40,605 nucleotides of DNA from positions 1-40,605 of the forward strand of contig JAPLBA010000119.1 of NCBI GenBank assembly GCA_026393015.1, given 5' to 3'. The stretch comes from Actinomycetota bacterium (GTDB taxonomy: Bacteria; Actinomycetota; Actinomycetes; Nanopelagicales; Nanopelagicaceae). The translations under genes were made by a program, and so were the position numbers. Below, piece after piece: positions 3,555 to 40,605 of this stretch. Position 1 is the first letter of the stretch. Each line of letters opens with the position of its first letter. Below the pieces are notes generated by a model that saw nothing but the letters and a program-made list of their open reading frames with translations, had not been told where the DNA came from and did not search any database.

Positions 3555-4076
3555 GTGAGTAATCGCGAGAGCAGTGACGACGAGAGCAGTGACGGCGAGA
3601 ACCACCGTCCCGAGAGTGGCGATGGTTGGCATGAGTGCCATTGCGGCCAAAAGCATTGGGGCATCTACGGCGCCGCTGGACTCTTAGCAGTGCGTCGAAG
3701 GGGCGAGGAACTCTTCGTGCTTCTCCAGCATCGAGCTCCGTGGAGTCATAACGGTGACACCTGGGGGCTCCCCGGAGGGGCACTCAATCGAGACGAGGAT
3801 GCCATCGCAGGCGCCTTTCGAGAGGCTCTTGAGGAAGTGGGGATCGATGCCACTCACCTCACGCCACTTCACTCACACTTGGACGACCATTCAACATGGA
3901 GTTACGAAACGGTCATTGCACTTGCATCAGATGAAGCTGATGCCTCGGTTGCCAATCACGAATCACTTGCGGTGGCTTGGATTACCACCAGCAGTGTCGA
4001 AGCAGAAAACTTGCATCCCTCGTTTGCCAAGTCGTGGCCGGCACTACAAGAGCTCTTACAAAGTTTAGGGATCTAG
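3555..4076 (+). CDS. Nudix (MutT-like) hydrolase
   Basis: A 173-residue hydrolase of nucleoside diphosphate derivatives. The Nudix box GX5EX7REUXEEXGU is intact (GALNRDEDAIAGAFREALEE followed by VGI). Before the fold is the segment ECHCGQKHWG, a Cys/His motif that may bind metal and is shared by an actinobacterial Nudix subgroup (recalled, not checked). The acidic N-terminus contains a duplicated ESSDD/ESSDG from a 15-bp tandem repeat. The GTG start is supported by a leaderless promoter; no Shine-Dalgarno is present. The substrate cannot be predicted; damaged dNTPs or ADP-ribose-like compounds are possible. It is convergent with nrdJ. Confidence 0.9.
   Translation: MSNRESSDDESSDGENHRPESGDGWHECHCGQKHWGIYGAAGLLAVRRRGEELFVLLQHRAPWSHNGDTWGLPGGALNRDEDAIAGAFREALEEVGIDATHLTPLHSHLDDHSTWSYETVIALASDEADASVANHESLAVAWITTSSVEAENLHPSFAKSWPALQELLQSLGI
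3567..3596. repeat. 15-bp in-frame tandem duplication in the Nudix gene
   Basis: GAGAGCAGTGACGAC (3567-3581) is followed directly by GAGAGCAGTGACGGC (3582-3596), one mismatch. It encodes two acidic pentapeptides at the N-terminus. Confidence 0.9.
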
Positions 4077-4084
4077 AAAAGAAA

Positions 4085-4112
4085 GCGGGGGCTCTCTCTC
4101 GAGAACCCCCGC
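4085..4112 (-). terminator. Intrinsic terminator of nrdR-nrdJ
   Basis: A GC-rich hairpin with arms GCGGGGG and CCCCCGC, extended by TCTC/GAGA, is followed on the minus strand by TTTCTTTTCT. It begins 16 bases after the nrdJ stop. On the plus strand no T-run follows, so it mainly serves nrdJ, though it may slow transcription from the Nudix gene as well. Confidence 0.85.
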
Positions 4113-4127
4113 ATTACTCGTTGATGA

Positions 4128-6923
4128 TTAGCTGCAACCGCTTGTCGATCCGCAACCTTCGCAGACGTAGCAAGAACCAGCTGGGCGCATCTTTGTGCCG
4201 CAAGTGACACACATCGGCGCATCTTGATTACGGCCCATCATGGCTTCGAGGAGCTCGGTAGAAGAGCCCACCTGCCGAGCAGGAGCAGCAGGAGCTGCAG
4301 CTACCGGCTTGGTGACCAAGTCTTCGCTCTCAAAGGCACCAACCTCATCTGGTGCGGAGTACGAACCTGTGTCGAGTTGACGAGCACGCTCTTCGGCAGT
4401 GTAGATACCGAGCGCCGAACGTGTCTCGTAATCCAAGTAATCCAGTGAGAGACGACGGAAGATGTAATCCATGATGGATTGCGCCATCCGTACATCAGCA
4501 TCATCTGTCATACCAGCTGGCTCAAAGCGCAGGTTGGCAAACTTTTGTACATAGGTCTCAAGAGGTACGCCGTATTGAAGGCCAATAGAGACCGCGATCG
4601 AGAAGGCATCCATCACGCCGGCAAGAGTGGAACCTTGCTTACCAAGCTTAAGGAATACCTCACCCAGTGAACCGTCTTCATACGAGCCAGCAGTCATGTA
4701 ACCCTCAGCGCCGCCGACTGTGAAGGAAGTGGTGAGTGATGGACGTGACTTGGGCAAGCGACGACGAGTAGCTACAGCTGAAACTTCAGCCGGCGCTGCT
4801 TCTTGTGCGCCACGAGCATCTGAAAGTGGTTGACCCACCTTGCAGTTGTCGCGGTAGATGGCGAGTGCCTTGAGGCCGTACTTCCAACCTTGGAAGTAAA
4901 CCTCTTCAACCTCTTCAACAGTGGCTTCTGATGGAAGGTTAACTGTCTTAGAGATGGCTCCCGAAAGGAATGGTTGGCATGCCGCCATCATGTGCACGTG
5001 GCCCATGGCCGCAATGGGACGAGCGCCCATCGCGCAATCGAAGACGCTGTAATGCTCAGGCTTGAGACCTGGGGCATCAATAACGTTTCCAGTGGTACCA
5101 ATGTGTTCCACAATGGCTTCGACAGTCTCTTCGGTGTAGCCAAGTTTGCGAAGTGAACGTGGAATCGCTTGGTTAACGATCTGCATAGATCCGCCACCGA
5201 CTAACTTCTTGAACTTAACGAGAGCAAGGTCTGGCTCGATACCGGTGGTATCGCAATCCATCATGAGCCCGATAGTTCCGGTGGGTGCAAGGACGGATGC
5301 TTGCGCATTACGCCAGCCATTCTTCTCACCAATCTTGAGGCAATCAGCCCAAGCCTTGGTGGCCTCACGATGTACATCTTTATCGAGAGTAGTGACTGCG
5401 CGAGATGCGTCATTTGCCGCAGCGTGCTTGCGCATGACACGGGTATGGGCATCTGCGTTACGGGCATAGCCTTCGTATTGACCCACAACACCTGCCAATT
5501 CAGCTGAACGCTTGTAAGCAGTACCCGTCATGAGCGAGGTGATAGCGCCAGCAAGTGCACGACCACCCTCGCTGTCGTATGGAAGACCACTTGCCATCAG
5601 GAGCGCACCGAGGTTGGCATAGCCAATACCTAGTTGACGGTACTTGCGAGTGGTGTCACCAATGGCCTCTGTGGGGAAATCGGCGAAGCAGATAGAGATG
5701 TCCATCGCCGTGATAACCGTTTCGACCAATTTGGCGAAATTCTTGGCATCGAAAGATCCATCTTCTTTGAGGAACTTAAGCAAGTTGATGCTGGCTAGGT
5801 TGCAAGAAGAGTTATCAAGTGACATGTACTCAGAGCATGGGTTCGAAGCATTGATTCGACCCGTCTCTGGATTGGTGTGCCAATCGTTGATGGTGTCGTC
5901 ATATTGAATGCCGGGATCTGCGCAACCCCACGCGGCGACAGAGACTTTACGGAAGAGCTCGCGGGCATCCACCGTTTCGATCACTTCTCCGGTAGCGCGA
6001 GCACGGAGACCGAATGTCTTACCCTCTTCGACAGCGCGCATAAATTCATCACTCACGCGAACCGAGTTATTAGCATTTTGGTACTGCACGGAGACGATGT
6101 CTTTACCACCGAGGTCCATATCGAAGCCAGCATCACGCAGAGCGCGGATCTTATCCTCTTCATTTGCTTTTGTTTCGATAAATTCTTCGATATCTGGATG
6201 ATCAATGTCGAGCACAACCATCTTTGCGGCGCGACGCGTAGCTCCACCAGATTTGATGGTTCCAGCCGAGGCATCGGCGCCACGCATGAACGAGACTGGA
6301 CCTGATGCAGTGCCACCAGACTTGAGAAGTTCTTTGCTCGAACGAATGCGGGAGAGATTAAGACCAGCTCCTGAGCCGCCCTTAAAGATCATGCCCTCTT
6401 CGCGATACCAGTTGAGAATTGAATCCATCGTGTCATCCACGCTCAGGATGAAGCAAGCGCTCACTTGTTGCGGCGCGGCCGTTCCGACGTTGAACCAGAC
6501 AGGTGAATTGAACGAGAAGACTTGATGCATAAGAGCCCACGTCAACTCATGCTCAAAGATTTCTGCATCGCTATCGGCAGCAAAGTATCCGAAGTCCTTG
6601 CCGGCCTTCGTATAGGTCAACACCACACGATCAATGAGTTGCTTGAGACTCCACTCACGGTTATCGGTGCCGACCACGCCTCGGAAGTACTTGGTGGTCA
6701 CGATGGTGGAAGCATTTACTGACCAGAAATCAGGAAACTCAGCGCCACGTTGCTCGAAGATGACCTCGCCGCTCTTCCAATTTGTCTGCACCACATCGCG
6801 ACGCTCCCACGTCACTTCGTCGTAGGGATGCACGCCTGGAGTCGTAAAAATACGCTCCATGCGTAGACCTTTCTTCGACTTTGATGCGGTAGCGGAAGGG
6901 CGACTGCTAACGGTCTCTGGCAT
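4128..6923 (-). CDS. nrdJ: Vitamin B12-dependent (class II) ribonucleoside-diphosphate reductase
   Basis: This 931-residue enzyme reduces ribonucleotides to deoxyribonucleotides using adenosylcobalamin to generate the thiyl radical, with no oxygen requirement. Seen: the NPCSE active-site segment (Asn361, Cys363, Glu365), the probable redox pair Cys157 (SACFIL) and Cys374 (NSSCNL), a glycine-rich substrate loop GGSGAGLNLSR (182-192), and a C-terminal Cys-rich tail (CVTC, CYVCEGC, SGC) that resembles a zinc-ribbon and likely holds the shuttling thiols. It starts with ATG after AGGAG with a 7-base spacer, 23 bp downstream of nrdR. Length fits long actinobacterial NrdJ proteins. The cell therefore needs cobalamin; no cobalamin riboswitch is visible. 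Confidence 0.97.
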   Translation of the reverse strand: MPETVSSRPSATASKSKKGLRMERIFTTPGVHPYDEVTWERRDVVQTNWKSGEVIFEQRGAEFPDFWSVNASTIVTTKYFRGVVGTDNREWSLKQLIDRVVLTYTKAGKDFGYFAADSDAEIFEHELTWALMHQVFSFNSPVWFNVGTAAPQQVSACFILSVDDTMDSILNWYREEGMIFKGGSGAGLNLSRIRSSKELLKSGGTASGPVSFMRGADASAGTIKSGGATRRAAKMVVLDIDHPDIEEFIETKANEEDKIRALRDAGFDMDLGGKDIVSVQYQNANNSVRVSDEFMRAVEEGKTFGLRARATGEVIETVDARELFRKVSVAAWGCADPGIQYDDTINDWHTNPETGRINASNPCSEYMSLDNSSCNLASINLLKFLKEDGSFDAKNFAKLVETVITAMDISICFADFPTEAIGDTTRKYRQLGIGYANLGALLMASGLPYDSEGGRALAGAITSLMTGTAYKRSAELAGVVGQYEGYARNADAHTRVMRKHAAANDASRAVTTLDKDVHREATKAWADCLKIGEKNGWRNAQASVLAPTGTIGLMMDCDTTGIEPDLALVKFKKLVGGGSMQIVNQAIPRSLRKLGYTEETVEAIVEHIGTTGNVIDAPGLKPEHYSVFDCAMGARPIAAMGHVHMMAACQPFLSGAISKTVNLPSEATVEEVEEVYFQGWKYGLKALAIYRDNCKVGQPLSDARGAQEAAPAEVSAVATRRRLPKSRPSLTTSFTVGGAEGYMTAGSYEDGSLGEVFLKLGKQGSTLAGVMDAFSIAVSIGLQYGVPLETYVQKFANLRFEPAGMTDDADVRMAQSIMDYIFRRLSLDYLDYETRSALGIYTAEERARQLDTGSYSAPDEVGAFESEDLVTKPVAAAPAAPARQVGSSTELLEAMMGRNQDAPMCVTCGTKMRPAGSCYVCEGCGSTSGCS

Positions 6924-34027: not shown

Positions 34028-34288
34028 ATGGAAATCCTGATGTATGGCGCCGAATGGTGCGGAGATTGCCGGAGATCAAAGGCGCTCTTAGACAAGTTGG
34101 GGACGACTCATCAATTGAAGTACACCTATATAGATATCGAAGCCGACCCCGCGGCCGCCGCCCGAGTCATCGAGATCAATGGTGGCATGCGCTCCATCCC
34201 GGTCATCTGCTTGCCCGATGGCACTCATCTCACAGAGCCGAGCGATAATGCTCTCCGAGAAAAACTCATCGAACTGAAAGTTATCTGA
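34028..34288 (+). CDS. Glutaredoxin/mycoredoxin-like protein
   Basis: An 86-residue thioredoxin-fold protein with MYGAEWCGDCRRSK (CxxC active site) and a cis-Pro segment SIPVICLPDG. Mycoredoxins, which use mycothiol in actinobacteria, have the same size; the usual active site is WCGYC or similar, here WCGDC. ATG 34028 is favoured over the upstream GTG 34022 by the leaderless -10. Its stop overlaps the ligase start (TGATG), so it heads a small operon. Confidence 0.85.
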   Translation: MEILMYGAEWCGDCRRSKALLDKLGTTHQLKYTYIDIEADPAAAARVIEINGGMRSIPVICLPDGTHLTEPSDNALREKLIELKVI

Positions 34289-35817
34289 TGGCTATTCATC
34301 CTGGTGGGTCCCAACTCAACATTGCTAACGGAATCCGTGAGTTCGCGCATGCCACTCCTCACAAAGTCGCGGTGATCGATGGTGATCGCTCACTTACCTT
34401 TGGGGCCATCAACGAACGCGCCTCGCGCCTGGCTTCCGGATTATTAAAAGCTGGGCTCAAGAAAGGTGACGCCGTCGCACTTCTCCTCGGAAATCGTTTT
34501 GAATATCCAGAGATAGCCGCGGGTCTTGCGATGGCCGGCCTGGTCCTCGTTCCGTTAAACCCGCGTCAAGTAGCCAACGAAATTGCCTTCGTACTTGAGC
34601 ACGCAAGCGTTCAAGCGATCATCGTCGACTCCGCGCTAGCAGGAAACCTGCCATCAAGTGGTCTACCAAAAATTATCTTTGCAATTGACGGAAATGATGT
34701 AGGAAAGAATTACGAAGATTTTCTTGCCGCATCTAATGCAGTTGATCCTCGAATTCCCACACTGGAAAGTGATCCCTTCTGTATTACCTACACATCAGGA
34801 ACTACAGGACAGCCCAAGGGCGTCCTGATTAGCCACCGGTCACGTTCGCTGACCTTCTATGCCACCGCACTCGAATGGGGTCTTGGTCCCAATACGCGCA
34901 CAGTCGGAGTGGCGCCGATGTATCACGGAGCGGGATTCGCCTTTGGCTATGCGCCGATATTTACCGGCGGAACCGTGGTGATGCAACGGAAGTTCGATCC
35001 AGATGAGACATTGCAATTAGTCCAGGATCAACGAATCGAATCTATGTTCCTGGTGCCCACGCATGCTCAAATGATGCGCGCGCTCGGCGATGAAGCCATC
35101 ACGCGTCGCGATCTCTCTTCGCTACACACTCTTTATTTCAATGCTGCTGCACTTCCCGTTGCATTGAAGAAGTGGGTACTCGATATATTTCCTCATACTG
35201 GCGTGCACGAACTCTATGGTTCGACCGAAGCCGGTATTGTGACTAACTCGCGCCCGCAAGATGCGCTTCGCAAGGCAGGCTCGGTGGGGCATCCATGGTT
35301 TATGACCGAAGTACGTGTGGTGCGCGAAGATGGCTCACTCGTTGATCCTGGTGAGTCAGGCGAACTCTTCAGCCGCTCCCCTTACTTGATGAATGGGTAT
35401 CTCAACGATCCTGCGGCCACCGCTGCCTGCACTACTGATGATGGCTTCCTCACATCGGGTGATGTTGTGGTCGTAGATGAAGAAGGATTCATCAGCATCG
35501 TGGATCGTAAGAAAGACTTGATCATCACTGGCGGCGCGAATGTTTATCCACGCGAGATCGAAGAAGTCCTGGCGACTCATGACGGCGTTGCAGAGTGTGC
35601 CGTCATTGGTATTAACGATGAGACATGGGGTGAGCGCGTGGTGGCAGTAGTTGTCGCCCGCGCGGGCAAAAGCCTCAACCACGAGATCATCGAAGCCCAC
35701 CTCCGTGGAAAGCTCGCCGGCTACAAAATGCCGAAAGAGACCGTGGTCATTGATGCCCTCCCTCGGAATGCGGCCGGCAAGATCGTCAAGCGCGATCTCA
35801 AGGTGCACTTCTCCTAG
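34288..35817 (+). CDS. ANL-superfamily acyl-CoA synthetase/ligase
   Basis: Activates a carboxylic acid with ATP and joins it to CoA. The 509-residue protein has the P-loop YTSGTTGQPKGV (168-179), the LYGSTEAG motif, the hinge DRKKDLIITGGANVYPREIEE and the catalytic Lys498 (NAAGKIVKRDL). Resemblance is to short/medium fatty or aromatic acyl-CoA ligases; the substrate cannot be read. It is translationally coupled to the redoxin gene. The 129-bp gap to the cupin gene has a separate promoter. Confidence 0.93.
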   Translation: MAIHPGGSQLNIANGIREFAHATPHKVAVIDGDRSLTFGAINERASRLASGLLKAGLKKGDAVALLLGNRFEYPEIAAGLAMAGLVLVPLNPRQVANEIAFVLEHASVQAIIVDSALAGNLPSSGLPKIIFAIDGNDVGKNYEDFLAASNAVDPRIPTLESDPFCITYTSGTTGQPKGVLISHRSRSLTFYATALEWGLGPNTRTVGVAPMYHGAGFAFGYAPIFTGGTVVMQRKFDPDETLQLVQDQRIESMFLVPTHAQMMRALGDEAITRRDLSSLHTLYFNAAALPVALKKWVLDIFPHTGVHELYGSTEAGIVTNSRPQDALRKAGSVGHPWFMTEVRVVREDGSLVDPGESGELFSRSPYLMNGYLNDPAATAACTTDDGFLTSGDVVVVDEEGFISIVDRKKDLIITGGANVYPREIEEVLATHDGVAECAVIGINDETWGERVVAVVVARAGKSLNHEIIEAHLRGKLAGYKMPKETVVIDALPRNAAGKIVKRDLKVHFS

Positions 35818-35861: not shown

Positions 35862-35890
35862 TTGTCTCCGAAATCCCGCCCCGATAGAAT
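35862..35890 (+). promoter_or_regulatory. Promoter of the bicupin gene
   Basis: TTGTCT and TAGAAT are separated by 17 bp, a good vegetative promoter. The RNA would start near 35897 and carry a 50-nt leader ending in the ribosome site GAGGAG. Confidence 0.6.
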
Positions 35891-35898
35891 CGTGAAAC

Positions 35899-35921
35899 AG
35901 CGTTCCACCAGACGGAACACT
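35899..35921. promoter_or_regulatory. Candidate operator downstream of the bicupin promoter
   Basis: AG-C-GTTCC and GGAAC-A-CT form an inverted repeat with a 7-base centre (ACCAGAC), beginning about the predicted transcription start. The size and position suit a repressor site. The repressor is unknown. Confidence 0.45.
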
Positions 35922-35946
35922 CATCGGAAATCTATGAGGAGCCGCA

Positions 35947-37143
35947 ATGCGTCCACACGTCGAACTCATCTCTGAACACGATTACATCTGGCATGCCGCG
36001 GAACTTCCACAAGGGGAAGGCAAAGCGCATCAACGTAATCTCTCAGTGGACGAAGAGGATGGCTCCTCCTCAATGCGCGTTGATTTCCAATCAACGTGGG
36101 GACGCGGTCCTGGTCTCCACCACGCAGATACCGAGTACTACGTCATGTCGGGTTCCATGACCCTGGGCAACCAAAAGATTGGCCCAGGCGGTTACATCCA
36201 TGCACCCAAGGGCGTTCCGATGGATTCCATCGTCTTCGAAGAGGGCACCCAAATTTTGCATTATCGCGAATTTGGCGATGCGGGTTTTGATCGCACCGAC
36301 AACGCACATGTCGGTCGCAAATCTGATGCTTATGGCGACATTCTCGTAGTTGATAGTGGCGCGATGAATTGGACCGAAGTTCCTAACGCCGGACCACAAC
36401 CAGGCTTACTTATTAAATACTTGCACGTAGACCCAGTCACCGGTTTCTACACCCGCCTGGTGCACTCAAAAGAGGGTTGGACCGATCACCGTTTAGCCCA
36501 TCACCCTTGCTACGAAGAGGCCTACACTTTGCAAGGAAAGATGTCTTATAACTTTGGCGACCTAGACGTCGGCACCTACTTCTTCCGCCCCGCTCGAGTG
36601 AAGCATGGTCACTTCGTTTCTCTCGAAGGTGGTGCCACGTGGCTCCTTCGCTCAGATGGCGAACTCACCAACTGGTACACCCAGAATGAATGGCTCCGCT
36701 GGGGTGGGGAAGCCGTCAATTATGGCCCCGATGGCGGCCGCATGACCTACTCCCAATCGAGTTGGGATTTGGCTAACCGACCACATGCTCGCTCGGCGCA
36801 TGATCTCAAACAGCTCGAAGATTCTGTCGCTTTCCAGCGCGCGCAAGGCGCGCCAGATAAGGATTACCACCAACACGGAACGCACGTGGACCCCAGCCTT
36901 CGCGCGCTTGGTCTCGTTGATGATCATGGTCACGCTCATGACGATCATTCACACGATGTCATGGCCGAATGGCCAGCGCCTTCTGTGCTAGAGCATCCAG
37001 AAGAGCGCACAGATCGCGCACATAACTGGGGTACTGGCCGCAATTACAAGCAAAATATTGGCCAAGAAACCCCCGTACCGATCATTTCGACTCTCCCAGT
37101 GCGCTCGCGTTCTCGCGGCCGCTGGGATGGCGATGGAATGTAA
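35947..37143 (+). CDS. Bicupin protein with His-rich tail
   Basis: A 398-residue protein with two cupin modules. Module 1 has HHADTEYYVMSG (His58, His59, Glu63) and HAPKG (His85); module 2 has HHPCYEEAYTLQG (His185, His186, Glu190/191) and PARVKHGHF (His220, His222). These are the metal ligands expected in cupins, so one or two bound metals are likely. Residues 308-336 form a His/Asp-rich stretch (DDHGHAHDDHSHD) that may store or bind metal, unusual for cupins. The fold is known from dioxygenases, isomerases and sugar/aromatic enzymes; no specific reaction is assigned. Its stop overlaps the next gene (TAATG). Confidence 0.8.
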   Translation: MRPHVELISEHDYIWHAAELPQGEGKAHQRNLSVDEEDGSSSMRVDFQSTWGRGPGLHHADTEYYVMSGSMTLGNQKIGPGGYIHAPKGVPMDSIVFEEGTQILHYREFGDAGFDRTDNAHVGRKSDAYGDILVVDSGAMNWTEVPNAGPQPGLLIKYLHVDPVTGFYTRLVHSKEGWTDHRLAHHPCYEEAYTLQGKMSYNFGDLDVGTYFFRPARVKHGHFVSLEGGATWLLRSDGELTNWYTQNEWLRWGGEAVNYGPDGGRMTYSQSSWDLANRPHARSAHDLKQLEDSVAFQRAQGAPDKDYHQHGTHVDPSLRALGLVDDHGHAHDDHSHDVMAEWPAPSVLEHPEERTDRAHNWGTGRNYKQNIGQETPVPIISTLPVRSRSRGRWDGDGM

Positions 37144-37832
37144 TGCCATTTAAACCTCTATGGCTGATCATCCACGTCTTCTTGCTGGTCTACTGGTTGG
37201 GTGCTGATCTCGGCGTCTACTACTCCAGTAAATTTGTGGTGCGACGCGACCTCAGTAACGAGACGCGTGCCACCGTTGCCAAAGTAATGGAAGCAGTCGA
37301 TCTCTCCCCTCGAATCTGCCTCGTGCTCTTTCTTCCCAGCGGTATCTCTTTAATGGCAACAGATCCACACGGAGTCTCGTGGCTTTCCTGGCAACTTGCG
37401 ACGCTTTCATGGGTACTCTCATTTGGGTGGCTCTACATGGTCGTCACGCAATACCGCACGCACGGCAAGAATCCATTCCTCAGCAAAGCCGATCTCTACA
37501 TTCGCTACGCTCTCATCGTGGGATTGATCGGCATGGGGCTCTACACGATCATCGCCAGCGAGCCCTTCGGCGTCACCACTAATCCCAAGTGGCTCGGCGG
37601 CAAAGTCCTCGTTTACGCGATTGCCATCGCTGGCGGTGTAGGAATTCGCAAAGCTTTGGTTCCCTTCGGCCCCGCTTTTGGTTCAATCATGAGCAAGGGC
37701 TCGACTCCAGAAGCCGAAGACGCTTTAACGGCATCGATGAAGCGCGCCATTCCTTGGGTACACCTCATTTGGCTCTGCGTGATCATCGCCGCAATACTTG
37801 GAATCACCAAGCCGGGTATGAAGTTCTTCTAG
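37143..37832 (+). CDS. Unrecognised six-helix membrane protein
   Basis: A 229-residue protein with about six hydrophobic segments (about residues 6-24, 57-73, 80-100, 119-139, 149-167, 204-222). The start WLIIHVFLLVYWLGADLG, with a His in helix 1 and WVHLIW in the last helix, resembles the His-containing N-terminus of CopD/DUF2269-like membrane proteins, where histidines can bind heme or copper; this is a weak resemblance only. It is coupled to the bicupin gene by a one-base overlap and ends at a CTAG shared with the convergent gene. Confidence 0.75.
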   Translation: MPFKPLWLIIHVFLLVYWLGADLGVYYSSKFVVRRDLSNETRATVAKVMEAVDLSPRICLVLFLPSGISLMATDPHGVSWLSWQLATLSWVLSFGWLYMVVTQYRTHGKNPFLSKADLYIRYALIVGLIGMGLYTIIASEPFGVTTNPKWLGGKVLVYAIAIAGGVGIRKALVPFGPAFGSIMSKGSTPEAEDALTASMKRAIPWVHLIWLCVIIAAILGITKPGMKFF

Positions 37833-38293
37833 AACCAATCAGCAATGTGCGCGGTTGGTGACTCATTGGGGATTCGCCGTTCCTCAATGAGGGTAAATTT
37901 CACGATTGCGCCATGTTCAAAGGTTTGCCACACCCTCGTGCGGTAATCGCCCGTGAGATTGTGAATCGTTTCCAAGATAGTGCGATCTGGATTCTTCTTC
38001 CAATAATAAGGAAACATTAAAGTCTGCTCGTCGACGATATGAGTACGACCCATAAAATCGTCATCTTCGAAGAGCATGTCATTGCCGCGTACTTTGGCTC
38101 GGAAATCTAAGATCTCCGGTTCTTTACCTTCGCGCGTATAAATGATGCGCTCATACCACTCCTCACCAATCAAGCGAGTCTCTTGCCGGCTGCCGTACTT
38201 CTCAATCAGCGTGCCGTCGGGATTATGGTGGGCATAAGTGCCCTCCCAAACGCCGGTAACGCCATGTAGGAAATCTTCCAGAGTGCGTGTCAT
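37829..38293 (-). CDS. Lipocalin-like beta-barrel protein (DUF3598-like)
   Basis: A 154-residue soluble, beta-strand-rich protein. GVWEGTYAHHNPDGTLIEK at residues 13-31, followed by SRQETRLIG, matches the opening of lipocalin-like DUF3598 proteins, which bind small ligands. No signal peptide. It overlaps the upstream gene by four bases (ATGA) and is the last gene of the livF-headed operon. Function unknown; ligand binding is inference from the fold. Confidence 0.65.
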   Translation of the reverse strand: MTRTLEDFLHGVTGVWEGTYAHHNPDGTLIEKYGSRQETRLIGEEWYERIIYTREGKEPEILDFRAKVRGNDMLFEDDDFMGRTHIVDEQTLMFPYYWKKNPDRTILETIHNLTGDYRTRVWQTFEHGAIVKFTLIEERRIPNESPTAHIADWF

Positions 38294-38973
38294 CTTGGGT
38301 CTCCATTCAATTCAGCGAGGACGTACGAAGTCTTCAAGACATCCCAGTAAATTTTAACTAACTGATTCGAACCGGGCATGACCCAGACCTGCTCAGGTGC
38401 CCAACCGTAGTGATCCAAGTGGTAGGTGTAGTGGTACGTATCAAAAGTTCCTGCAGGTACCGTGATGCGCTCCTCCCCCACAAACTCAATATCAAATTCC
38501 CACTCCCCCAACATCGGTCCGGTGGAGCCATCGGGAGAGTGCGACGAGTTCAAAATATTGGTGACTCGCTGGCGCTGAGGTCCGCCATGTTTGTAGAGCG
38601 ATGCATGCAAGCAATCGCAGAGAACTGGGTGCGCACCAAAAGAAGCGGCTGGGCCGGGTGTCTTCATCGTTTGGCTCACGCGACCGCCACCAGCAATCAT
38701 GGCCTCGCAATGCGCTTCATTCTCGTCGAAGGTAAACCAGCCGGAACCTTCGTGCTTTCCCTTGATCACAATTCGGATGTACGCCTCTTCAGGGGTGAAG
38801 CCATTCATGGAGTAGGTGACATCTCGCATGATCTCGGTGTCATCCATTTCACAACGCGCCCGCACGACCCGGTGCCCATCTTGATGTGTCGTGACGGTAA
38901 ACCATTCGCGACCACGTTCCCCGCGTTCGTCGTGGATATAGTCGATCCGACCAGACCAGGCATGTTGCTCCAT
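38290..38973 (-). CDS. Unrecognised beta-rich protein (weak DUF3108-like C-terminus)
   Basis: A 227-residue cytoplasmic protein without recognised catalytic motif. ERITVPAGTFDTYHYTYHL at residues 168-186 resembles the conserved strand of DUF3108-type proteins; Cys119/Cys121 (LCDCLH) are notable. ATG 38973 has GGGAGG seven bases upstream and shares one base with the VOC stop (TAATG); an in-frame start at 38988 is less likely. It sits between the VOC and lipocalin-like genes with overlaps on both sides. Confidence 0.65.
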   Translation of the reverse strand: MEQHAWSGRIDYIHDERGERGREWFTVTTHQDGHRVVRARCEMDDTEIMRDVTYSMNGFTPEEAYIRIVIKGKHEGSGWFTFDENEAHCEAMIAGGGRVSQTMKTPGPAASFGAHPVLCDCLHASLYKHGGPQRQRVTNILNSSHSPDGSTGPMLGEWEFDIEFVGEERITVPAGTFDTYHYTYHLDHYGWAPEQVWVMPGSNQLVKIYWDVLKTSYVLAELNGDPR

Positions 38974-39926
38974 TAAATGGCCTCCCATAGCTCGATGAAC
39001 GCGCCTTCAGGTGTTTCAGCAGAAGCAAGGCGAGCCTTGCCGTGGATCGGATCATCGGTAATGAGTGGAGCAGAGAGCACTACGCCACCTTGTTTCGTGA
39101 CGACTTCCAGTGCACCGTCGAGATCGTGGGTTTTAAACGACCACCCCGAGTGTCCAAGTGCTTTACCGGGGCGCTGTTCGGCGCGTAGATCGCGCGGAGG
39201 TTCTACGTTATTTACCTTGATCACTTCGATGCGGGCAGTGCTCTCTCCGGCAAGGAATACCAAAGTGATTTCAGCATCAGCAGGAAGCTGTGCCATCTTA
39301 TTAAGGCCCTCGGAAGTGAAGCTCACGTCATACCACTTCGCCATTCCAAGACCTTCCGGTCCAAAGAAGGCGGTGAGACCCTCGAGATCGCGCACTCCGC
39401 AGACCACTGAAGTGAGCTCCGTGTAAGGAAGGTCTGGATTGGCCTCCCATGCCTTAGTAACGCGGGCATTCTTGGCTTCCACAAAAACCACTGCGGTGCC
39501 TTCAGGGCCGAAGAGAAATGCTTCGGTGATTTCGACAACTGTCTCACCGAGCGGTACCTGATACGCCTCAGGTTGGCGCACCCATTTGTGGCCCGCTTTG
39601 TTCATCTGCTCATACGTGGCCGCGCTATCTTTCGTATAAAGATCAAGTGCATGAAAGCCGAGTTCACTCGTGTGTGGATGGCGAGCCGTAAGAGAATCAG
39701 CATTCTGCGTGCGAAAAAGGTAGACCTGACCGGTGTCGGATCCCGCGGCACAAAGTACCTTTACTTCGATCTCTCCCTCAACGTTGTATACCTTCTTAGC
39801 CACATCAGCGGAGATCACTCCACTCTTGCAGTTATCCCAACCGAGCTCGCCACACCAAAAATCTAAGTGAGGTGCAAAATCTTGCACACCCACAAAGGCG
39901 CCTGTTACTCCAGTAATTAACGTCAT
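38973..39926 (-). CDS. VOC-family protein (glyoxalase/dioxygenase superfamily)
   Basis: A 317-residue protein made of vicinal-oxygen-chelate repeats: an N-terminal pair opening with TGAFVGVQDFAPHLDFWCGELGW and a C-terminal pair opening with LTSVVCGVRDLEGLTAFFGPEGLGM, each ending in a typical GAFIELWE/GTAVVFVE strand. Members include glyoxalases, extradiol dioxygenases and epimerases; the metal ligands are not obvious here, so the activity is open. The start ATG 39926 overlaps the PPOX-fold gene by four bases; a longer frame to 40091 would lie inside that gene. Confidence 0.85.
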   Translation of the reverse strand: MTLITGVTGAFVGVQDFAPHLDFWCGELGWDNCKSGVISADVAKKVYNVEGEIEVKVLCAAGSDTGQVYLFRTQNADSLTARHPHTSELGFHALDLYTKDSAATYEQMNKAGHKWVRQPEAYQVPLGETVVEITEAFLFGPEGTAVVFVEAKNARVTKAWEANPDLPYTELTSVVCGVRDLEGLTAFFGPEGLGMAKWYDVSFTSEGLNKMAQLPADAEITLVFLAGESTARIEVIKVNNVEPPRDLRAEQRPGKALGHSGWSFKTHDLDGALEVVTKQGGVVLSAPLITDDPIHGKARLASAETPEGAFIELWEAI

Positions 39927-40348
39927 GAGTTCAACCCATATATCCGGTAGCGACTTGGATTCACCACACCAAGTTGTGTCCCCTCGTTGGAAAGCGTGCG
40001 TTGCATGCCAGCTAATGCTTCTTCGCCGAGAGTGGAACGGATGAGCCACTCCCATTTCTCTTGTGCTGCTGGGCCAACTGAAAGTTCGCACTCGCCCCAG
40101 ATAGTGAGGTGAGCAAGATCGCCATCACGTGAGATCGAGATACAGACACGAGGATCGCGCTTAATATTCTTATTCTTCTGCTTTCCCGTGACGCTGAGAT
40201 AAAGCGCATCTTGGTCATATCCCAGCACTACCGGGGTGACATGTGGCCCACCATCGGGAGAGACCGTGGCGAGGTGAACCCATTTTCCAGGCGTGTTGAG
40301 CGTCTCAAGTGCACTCACCAATTCTGCATCTAGGTGCACGCGTGCCAT
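39923..40348 (-). CDS. Pyridoxamine 5'-phosphate oxidase-fold (PPOX/FDOR) flavin or F420 protein
   Basis: A 141-residue split-barrel protein with WVHLATVSPDGGPHVTPVVLGYD and LYLSVTGKQKNKNIKRDPRVCISI, the hallmark of the PPOX/F420-dependent reductase family. These bind FMN or coenzyme F420 and reduce or oxidise small molecules. Which cofactor is used here cannot be decided. It starts two bases after the livF stop and overlaps the VOC gene. Confidence 0.85.
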   Translation of the reverse strand: MARVHLDAELVSALETLNTPGKWVHLATVSPDGGPHVTPVVLGYDQDALYLSVTGKQKNKNIKRDPRVCISISRDGDLAHLTIWGECELSVGPAAQEKWEWLIRSTLGEEALAGMQRTLSNEGTQLGVVNPSRYRIYGLNS

Positions 40349-40350
40349 CT

Positions 40351-40605
40351 TTAGCCTGTGTGACCGAGGTACGCAGCGACAACTGCGGGGTCGTCCTTGA
40401 GCGATTCGGATGTGCCGCTGATGGCAACAACGCCGCGTTCAAGCACATATCCACGCTGTGAAATTTGCAAGGCTAAGCGAGCTTGTTGCTCCACGAGCAG
40501 AATCGTGAGGCCCTTTTCCTTATGAAGTCGCTTGAGGTAGCCAAACATTTCAATTACTAGGCGCGGGGCCAGACCAAGGCTCGGTTCATCGAGCATCAAG
40601 AGACG
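40351..40605 (-). CDS. livF: ABC transporter ATP-binding protein LivF-type (5' part outside window)
   Basis: The last 85 codons of an ABC ATPase; the gene enters from the right edge. Seen: Walker B/D-loop MLDEPSLGLAP and LLVEQQARLAL, which replaces the switch His as is usual in LivF, and the ending AAYLGH. LivF works with LivG, two permeases and a binding protein in uptake of branched-chain amino acids, amides or aromatic acids. It is directly coupled to the PPOX-fold gene, tying the uptake system to this operon. Confidence 0.9.
   Translation of the reverse strand, partial: RLLMLDEPSLGLAPRLVIEMFGYLKRLHKEKGLTILLVEQQARLALQISQRGYVLERGVVAISGTSESLKDDPAVVAAYLGHTG

Follow-up and report, generated by a model that had tools for sequence, protein, structure and literature searches.

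A DUF4437 bicupin with a histidine-rich insert and a predicted IclR-type operator in a lake actinobacterium

The bicupin gene and its neighbours

The window, i.e. the whole 40,605-nt stretch of DNA that was analysed, is a contig of a lake bacterium (genome G000). Towards its end it carries a 398-aa open reading frame (35,947–37,143, forward strand) encoding a bicupin of the family DUF4437 (Pfam PF14499). The match (2.4e-55, 187.9 bits versus a curated cut-off of 24) spans the whole domain (profile positions 1–250 of 250) and begins at residue 6 of the protein; at E values up to 1, the only other Pfam match is to Cupin_7 (ChrR cupin-like, 5e-19). The predicted structure model is consistent with two cupin barrels in one chain, as residues 1–250 align with the solved bicupin 2qdr with Z 27.2 (241 aligned residues, 2.2 Å), and the mean pLDDT is at least 84 in 20 of the first 24 ten-residue blocks. 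2qdr, a protein of Nostoc punctiforme titled putative dioxygenase, shares the two-module DUF4437 fold; however, the histidines of module 2 described below are absent from it, at least in the profile alignment, which covers positions 29–250 and ends before the C-terminal peptide. The bicupin fold is also common to (S)-ureidoglycine aminohydrolase (4e2q, Z 20.0) and YlbA (1rc6, Z 18.6), but with an identity of just 14–16% this likeness is known from the fold alone. Our literature search returned neither the term DUF4437 nor a published function for the family, and no paper that was on-topic by title for histidine-rich cupins or for bicupin gene clusters.

The cupin was found in 6 of 100 relatives, i.e. 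in all four genomes of the genus, in 2 of the 39 others of the class and in none of the 57 sampled genomes of the family's other genera, an absence that we count against the explanation favoured below. A plasmid search gave six distant matches (26–28% identity). A scan limited to proteins that carry either of two peptides of the core yielded 61 cupin loci, which serve as the basis for the comparisons below. One genus member (G002, contig C63; L007, L011, L018, L075) encodes two further cupin relatives with 44% and 33% identity, together with a second copy of the membrane protein described below and a branched-chain-type ABC transporter on the same contig. Two long-form bicupin frames lie close to each other in a Micromonosporaceae locus (L031:1702–2991 and 4480–5826), with FAD-binding-like ORFs between and after them, and the long-form cupin of Dactylosporangium roseum (L041:10001) has a stop after 70 codons, reflecting either a broken gene or a sequencing error.

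Upstream of the cupin lies an acyl-CoA ligase gene (34,288–35,817, forward strand; Pfam AMP-binding, 8.6e-87). According to home-made gene calls, the ligase cluster is present in 38 of the 61 cupin loci (15/21 in group A, 3/3 in F, 20/21 in C and 0/16 in B). Downstream, a gene for a 229-aa membrane protein (37,143–37,832, forward strand) begins within the cupin stop codon, at its final base (TAATG). It occurs in the same six relatives as the cupin, on a separate contig in the two class members outside the genus (G064 and G091). The membrane protein has no Pfam match at E up to 1 and no Foldseek match under E 0.001, and the best hit of a PDB profile search was 0.27. Its cluster is represented in 24 of the 61 loci from two phyla (17 in group C, 6 in A, 1 in B), and H11, D22, R42, W150 and K154 are invariant across an eight-row alignment that includes one protein twice.

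Three annotated genes further on lie on the reverse strand. The first encodes a DUF3598-like protein (37,829–38,293; Pfam 5.3e-5), a homologue of which (3.3e-5) adjoins the ligase-cupin pair in an Actinomadura locus (L025). The second encodes a two-domain glyoxalase-like protein (38,973–40,091; Glyoxalase_4 and Glyoxalase), the start of which is uncertain and overlaps the next gene; homologues are found in L106, next to a ligase, a cupin and an operator, and in L111, in the vicinity of an operator. The third is the C-terminal part of a branched-chain-amino-acid-type ABC transporter ATPase (40,351–40,605), the frame of which is open to the contig end. Its BCA_ABC_TP_C match (8.9e-5, 22.4 bits) is under the curated cut-off of 25.5, and a full-length homologue is encoded in L037.

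Candidate metal site and histidine-rich insert

The first-pass annotation proposed that both cupin modules keep metal ligands. This was examined in an alignment of 51 proteins, comprising 49 of the 61 scanned loci, the window protein and L004; eight loci were set aside as near copies or by thinning (L019, L037, L047, L051, L063, L065, L066, L069) and four as broken or partial (L041, L076, L078, L079). The claim stands for module 2, where the candidate ligands H185, H186 and E190 (codons 185–190, 36,499–36,516, forward strand) and H220 (36,604–36,606) are conserved in 51, 50, 51 and 51 of the 51 proteins, respectively, as is E191 (51/51). The combination of a conserved His and Glu in motif 1 and a conserved His in motif 2 makes this module a predicted metal cupin. 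The site is not a textbook motif, because position 184, where the HxHx3E spacing would put the first histidine, is Ala, Val, Ile or Glu.

The claim fails for module 1. H58 (50/51) and E63 (51/51) are kept there, but the complete motif is not: at position 93, where the last ligand would lie, the aligned proteins have Pro, Asp, Glu or Ala and never His, which rules this module out as a second metal site. The Glu-x6-Gly spacing fits E190/G197 in module 2, and the corresponding Glu of module 1 would be T62, a position occupied by Thr or Ser. The simplest reading of this conservation pattern is that the protein has one working metal site, located in module 2, and module 1 would then be degenerate and probably structural.

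The protein ends with a conserved peptide, PVRSRSRGRWDGDGM (residues 384–398; 37,096–37,140, forward strand), which is common to all three cupin subfamilies and is of the PVRSxSxGxW type (P384, R386 and S387 in 51/51, W393 in 49/51).

Between the core and this peptide lies a stretch rich in histidine and aspartate (residues 308–336; 36,868–36,954, forward strand), initially described as a tail with about ten histidines. The stretch is indeed histidine-rich, although it holds eight histidines (and five acidic residues), and it is an insert rather than a tail, since another 62 residues ending in the conserved peptide follow it. It sits within an approximately 100-residue insert relative to the short forms of the protein, in a region to which the model gives no confident fold.

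The homologue search showed that the insert is kept in the genus and, more broadly, in 28 of 31 long-form homologues, all of them actinobacterial, and that it is missing from three long forms, which represent one lineage, and from all 36 short forms. Four of the 28 rows are near copies from the genus. The short forms have at most three histidines per any 30 residues of their C-terminal part (36/36). The line between long forms with and without histidines (four in 30 residues) was set after the counts had been seen, and the insert is thin in two borderline proteins, L033 (4) and L030 (5). A class-wide draw with the whole window protein as the query added eight long forms, and the insert was present in each of them.

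In a core-only tree of 67 proteins (57 of the 61 loci, i.e. without L041, L076, L078 and L079, the window protein and nine new ones, of which L123 is partial), the long forms lie on one branch side (100/99), joined by one shortened protein, L042. The three long forms lacking the insert (L038–L040) are placed inside the long group, within a supported 27-row set (96/90), and their module 2 ligands are intact. With the root at the midpoint, the three labels given to the forms need at least three changes, as would be expected if the histidine insert had been gained once and lost twice. The lineage labelled f5 has neither the histidines nor the operator. The distribution rules out the insert as an oddity of the genus, as it is spread across the long clade, and the short forms rule it out as a family-wide feature; because three long and 36 short forms do without it, it is not a requirement of the cupin family at large. 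Judged from the sequences compared, the stretch is a clade property: its sequence changes fast, its character slowly, and at least one lineage can do without it.

What the insert does can be read in two ways. Loading of metal, as suggested by the first-pass annotation, is possible, the stretch being kept in 28 of the 31 long forms, and buffering of metal is plausible. In composition the stretch resembles the delivery loops of UreE, HypB and ZnuA, which we take to be histidine-rich metal-delivery segments: in each of them His alternates with Asp, Glu or Gly in a flexible stretch, and composition and conservation are what the comparison consists of here. In those proteins, however, the loop belongs to a chaperone or a transporter, whereas in the DUF4437 cupin it lies within a presumed enzyme. 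Among that part of the neighbours which was annotated, none was recognised as a metallochaperone or a metal transporter.

The serious rival is a neutral, disordered, low-complexity linker, in which HD and HG repeats arise by slippage and which plays no part in metal supply; we consider this a fair way short of probable, yet well worth holding against the first reading. It would account for the free variation of the insert in length and sequence (from 4 to 14 histidines per 30 residues across the 28 proteins), for its absence from three long forms, for the low model confidence, and for short stretches of exact repeats, e.g. HGDAHGDA in L032. It accounts less well for the histidine character kept by the other long forms and for the CAC and CAT codons mixed in many insert rows. 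Nor is such a composition common in L021–L036, where only 14 of 261 predicted genes reach seven histidines in 30 residues and 10 of those 14 belong to the DUF4437 cupin family itself (home-made gene calls, in which some cupins were missing or had a wrong start). Because some members of a single clade have the loop and others lack it, comparing them is a natural way to find out if enzymes can come with a metal-supply segment of their own.

The operator and its recurrence

The 129-base gap between the ligase and cupin genes holds a −35-like hexamer, TTGTCT (35,862–35,867, forward strand), and, 17 bases further, a −10-like hexamer, TAGAAT (35,885–35,890). These are followed after three bases by three boxes on the same strand, GAAAC (35,894–35,898), GTTCC (35,902–35,906) and GGAAC (35,914–35,918), separated by agc and accagac, and then by a ribosome-binding-like GAGGAG (35,936–35,941). 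The whole element, GAAACagcGTTCCaccagacGGAAC (35,894–35,918), has the form GAAAC-N3-GTTCC-N7-GGAAC. A 27-base block, TGAAACAGCGTTCCACCAGACGGAACA, is unchanged at 26 of 27 positions in the four genomes of the genus, whereas the −10 hexamer varies (TAGAAT in two, TAGGCT in two).

The gap had been described as containing a strong promoter followed by an imperfect 8-bp inverted repeat. A promoter-like pair is present, and its −35 hexamer is identical in all four genomes, but its strength is not borne out: it matches at 9 of 12 positions and, with one found versus 1.4 expected, is by itself no better than chance. The repeat is there as well, although its 8-bp arms pair at six of eight positions and the three 5-bp boxes describe it better; a generic inverted-repeat finder (minimum length 7) reported nothing at this place. 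The two-box form GTTCC-N7-GGAAC was dropped as a signal, as it is not above its reversed control (4 versus 5 in G000, and 4 versus 6, 7 versus 6 and 3 versus 2 in G001–G003), in contrast to the three-box form, which exceeds its control.

According to PMC8222616, IclR-family regulators recognise two types of site, namely GKTYCRYW3-4RYGRAMC and TGRAACAN1-2TGTTYCA; 32 regulator groups have three boxes that combine both. In the three-box operators described there (PcaU, PobR, HmgR), GRAAC-N3-GTTYC and GTTYC-N7-GRAAC have the middle box in common, as at the cupin. The element at 35,894–35,918 fits the consensus derived from this source (GRAAC-N3/4-GTTYC plus GTTYC-N7/8-GRAAC with a common middle box) and thus looks like a predicted site of the IclR-family three-box type. 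No regulon including this cupin was met in the consulted sections of PMC8222616, and the literature search found no paper on IclR sites with GAAAC and GTTTC. Lying directly after the −10 hexamer, the site would cover the transcription start, a position that would suit a repressor.

Since the operator is of the IclR type, metal sensing, the second role suggested for the histidines, is little supported, and a metal-responsive operator finds no support either, as the boxes fit the IclR consensus. MerR proteins can sense metals, and MerR-like ORFs were recognised by eye near two cupins (L025:12270–12665 and L106:15849–16847). Control of the cupin and the membrane protein apart from the ligase, as proposed, would agree with where the operator lies in the genus, but in L106 and L113 the operator stands at the start of a ligase-cupin unit.

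The first-pass annotation suggested looking for the operator elsewhere in the genome, and for the three-box form this was successful. With a box 1–2 spacing of 3 or 4, three sites were found in each of G000, G001 and G002 and two in G003, which is 80% complete, while the reversed control gave none; an extra spacing-3 site with a GTTTC middle box is present in G000 and G002 (this draw did not include G001 and G003). The spacing-3 sites of G000 are therefore three, the cupin site and two more on contig C122, and G002 carries the same four sites as G000 (three of spacing 3 and one of spacing 4). The site at C122:9673 lies upstream of a gene for an ABC transporter binding protein, approximately 35 bases from where this gene probably starts. 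That at C122:5859 precedes an operon encoding a small protein, an IclR regulator, a dihydropyrimidinase-like amidohydrolase and a luciferase-like oxidoreductase, and its IclR gene lies between two of the G000 operator sites. In L089, this IclR gene occupies positions 682–1455 and the binding protein gene positions 4053–5417. The G002 counterpart of C122:5859 falls, by eye, inside the over-extended start of an opposite-strand CoA-transferase-like frame (L092). The home-made gene caller gives rise to shadow genes where the DNA is GC-rich; it also sets starts too far upstream, so that several operator matches, this one included, lie inside called frames. A fourth two-box match in G000 (C66:2880), near an FAD-binding protein gene, has no third box.

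The window ends within the ATPase gene of a branched-chain-type transporter, and C122 ends within the second permease gene of that transporter type. In the Actinomadura loci L023 and L025 the cupin is followed by opposite-strand transporter genes, a binding protein and an IclR gene. Because of these cut transporter ends and this gene order, the window contig and C122 probably adjoin, forming one locus with three operators.

The repressor could also be another IclR protein, since five IclR helix-turn-helix matches over the cut-off were found in G000. Another IclR gene is present on C130, where the spacing-4 version of the site lies between this gene and an MTTB methyltransferase gene. The operator may be real but serve that regulator, which would place the cupin in a methylamine or betaine response. 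The similar three-box site in front of the C130 IclR gene (L088, L091) speaks for this possibility, but we hold it to be improbable: boxes 1 and 2 are four bases apart there (4/4), whereas they are three bases apart at the cupin (4/4) and at the transporter (3/3 found), and the spacing-3 site recurs in actinobacterial cupin loci, some of which encode a homologue of the C122 IclR. The C130 cluster itself, composed of MTTB (a trimethylamine-type methyltransferase), corrinoid-protein genes and its own IclR gene, has its spacing-4 site (G000:C130:5242–5267) in all four genus genomes. Single spacing-4 matches with AT-rich cores were seen in four genomes of the family's other genera (G007, G016, G034, G043), where the control is about as common.

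Outside the genus, the spacing-3/4 three-box pattern is no commoner than its control in genomes as a whole (5 versus 4 matches in 96 genomes). In the cupin loci of actinobacteria in groups A, F and B, 37 in number, there are 28 matches at spacings 3 and 7, with 0–2 at each other spacing tried and none in the reversed control; three of the loci are near copies from the genus. Divided by set, the spacing-3 form has 18 matches in the 24 actinobacterial loci of A and F, 10 in the 13 actinobacterial loci of B and none in the 24 others (20 proteobacterial group C loci, actinobacterial L075, L043, L052 and L056), versus none in the reversed control of each set and a mean of at most 0.05 in first-order Markov surrogates. 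The spacing-3 two-box half, each palindrome being counted on both strands, was found 56, 24 and 12 times versus 2, 0 and 0 in the controls, and is therefore raised in the third set as well.

Among 393 genomes of the class, the operator was found in 26 (45 matches); the reversed control also gave nine matches in seven genomes, and some operator matches may thus be due to chance. The cupin is present in 14 of the 393, and the operator in 8 of these 14 as opposed to 18 of the 379 genomes without a cupin (Fisher p 2.8e-7, or 2.0e-5 without the genus, with relatedness ignored). In seven of the eight genomes with both, the exception being G343, a site lies on the cupin contig, the nearest being from 28 bases to 21 kb away. 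Among stretches fetched around sites, L115, L116 and L118 have no labelled neighbour nearby, and L119 and L120 encode an IclR regulator and other transporters. Given these contexts and the 18 cupin-less genomes, the site marks an IclR subfamily at best. Altogether 44 distinct sites were listed; as most of L105–L114 and L124 were fetched around sites, this list describes the operator and does not test it. The operator and its recurrence nevertheless constitute our firmest result, more so than the histidine stretch.

Possible function of the cupin

The feature is real and conserved and can best be classed as a DUF4437 bicupin variant with a histidine loop, under an operator of known type. The interpretation that we favour, with moderate confidence, is that of a metal-dependent catabolic bicupin in an IclR-repressed, CoA-linked pathway, whose insert binds, hands over or buffers metal. 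The cupin would be a mononuclear-metal enzyme working through module 2, in a regulon devoted to the catabolism of a single compound, be it an amide, a ureide or a (hetero)aromatic, which would be taken up by the branched-chain/amide-type ABC transporter and degraded via CoA thioesters. An IclR-family repressor, most likely that of C122, would bind the three-box site over the transcription start of the cupin and membrane protein genes, as well as sites before the transporter and beside its own operon, and would be released by the pathway substrate or an intermediate. The insert would form a disordered loop that joins the catalytic core to the conserved C-terminal peptide, and it would most likely serve to bind and hand over, or to buffer, the metal of module 2.

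The neighbours argue for such a setting. Some cupin loci encode CoA-transferase III, MmgE/PrpD, thiolase-like, HMG-lyase-like and isochorismatase proteins, and further neighbours include polysaccharide-deacetylase-like, arylmalonate-decarboxylase-like and dihydropyrimidinase-like proteins. As far as such annotations go, the setting is catabolic, the compound being either aromatic or one that has an amide or C-N ring bond. The bicupin may carry out either oxygenative ring opening or hydrolysis. The hydantoinase-like and amidase-like neighbours may recall ureide breakdown, the process to which we would also relate the ureidoglycine aminohydrolase fold. The operator common to the cupin and the transporter suggests a degradation pathway that has not been described, and, with its partner set, candidate regulator and transporter named, the substrate can be sought via the transporter binding protein or by removal of the regulator.

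A bolder version of this interpretation, which we regard as rather unlikely, is a self-metallating catabolic enzyme, in which the histidine loop would act as a built-in metallochaperone for module 2 and the nearly invariant PVRS[RK][ST]xGxW peptide would close the active site. The reaction would belong to a CoA-linked pathway that has not been described, controlled by a three-box IclR switch that is widespread in actinobacteria.

ChrR-type anti-sigma factors have an N-terminal zinc-binding anti-sigma domain before the cupin. A role of the protein as a metal or redox sensor of this kind, rather than as an enzyme, is very improbable in spite of its Cupin_7 match and its likeness to the ChrR structure 3o14 (Z 20.5, 208 aligned residues, 2.9 Å), as the bicupin alignment starts at residue 1, leaving no domain N-terminal to it in the fold alignment or among Pfam matches at E up to 1, and the annotated neighbours are mostly catabolic enzymes with no recognised sigma-factor gene.

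The catabolic enzyme remains our preferred reading, and its setting differs between groups of loci. The literature search found no paper matching either the actinobacterial or the gammaproteobacterial gene set. Most gammaproteobacterial loci (group C, L054–L079) have a common gene order, in which the cupin precedes, in turn, an Amidohydro_2 protein, an acyl-CoA ligase, a DsbA-like protein and an oxidoreductase of the molybdopterin type, approximately 923 residues long. This pairing of a cupin with an Amidohydro_2 protein may be compared with that of 3-hydroxyanthranilate dioxygenase with an ACMSD-type enzyme; the Amidohydro_2 cluster was found in none of the loci of the other groups. In group C, a relative of the membrane protein is often encoded upstream, on the opposite strand.
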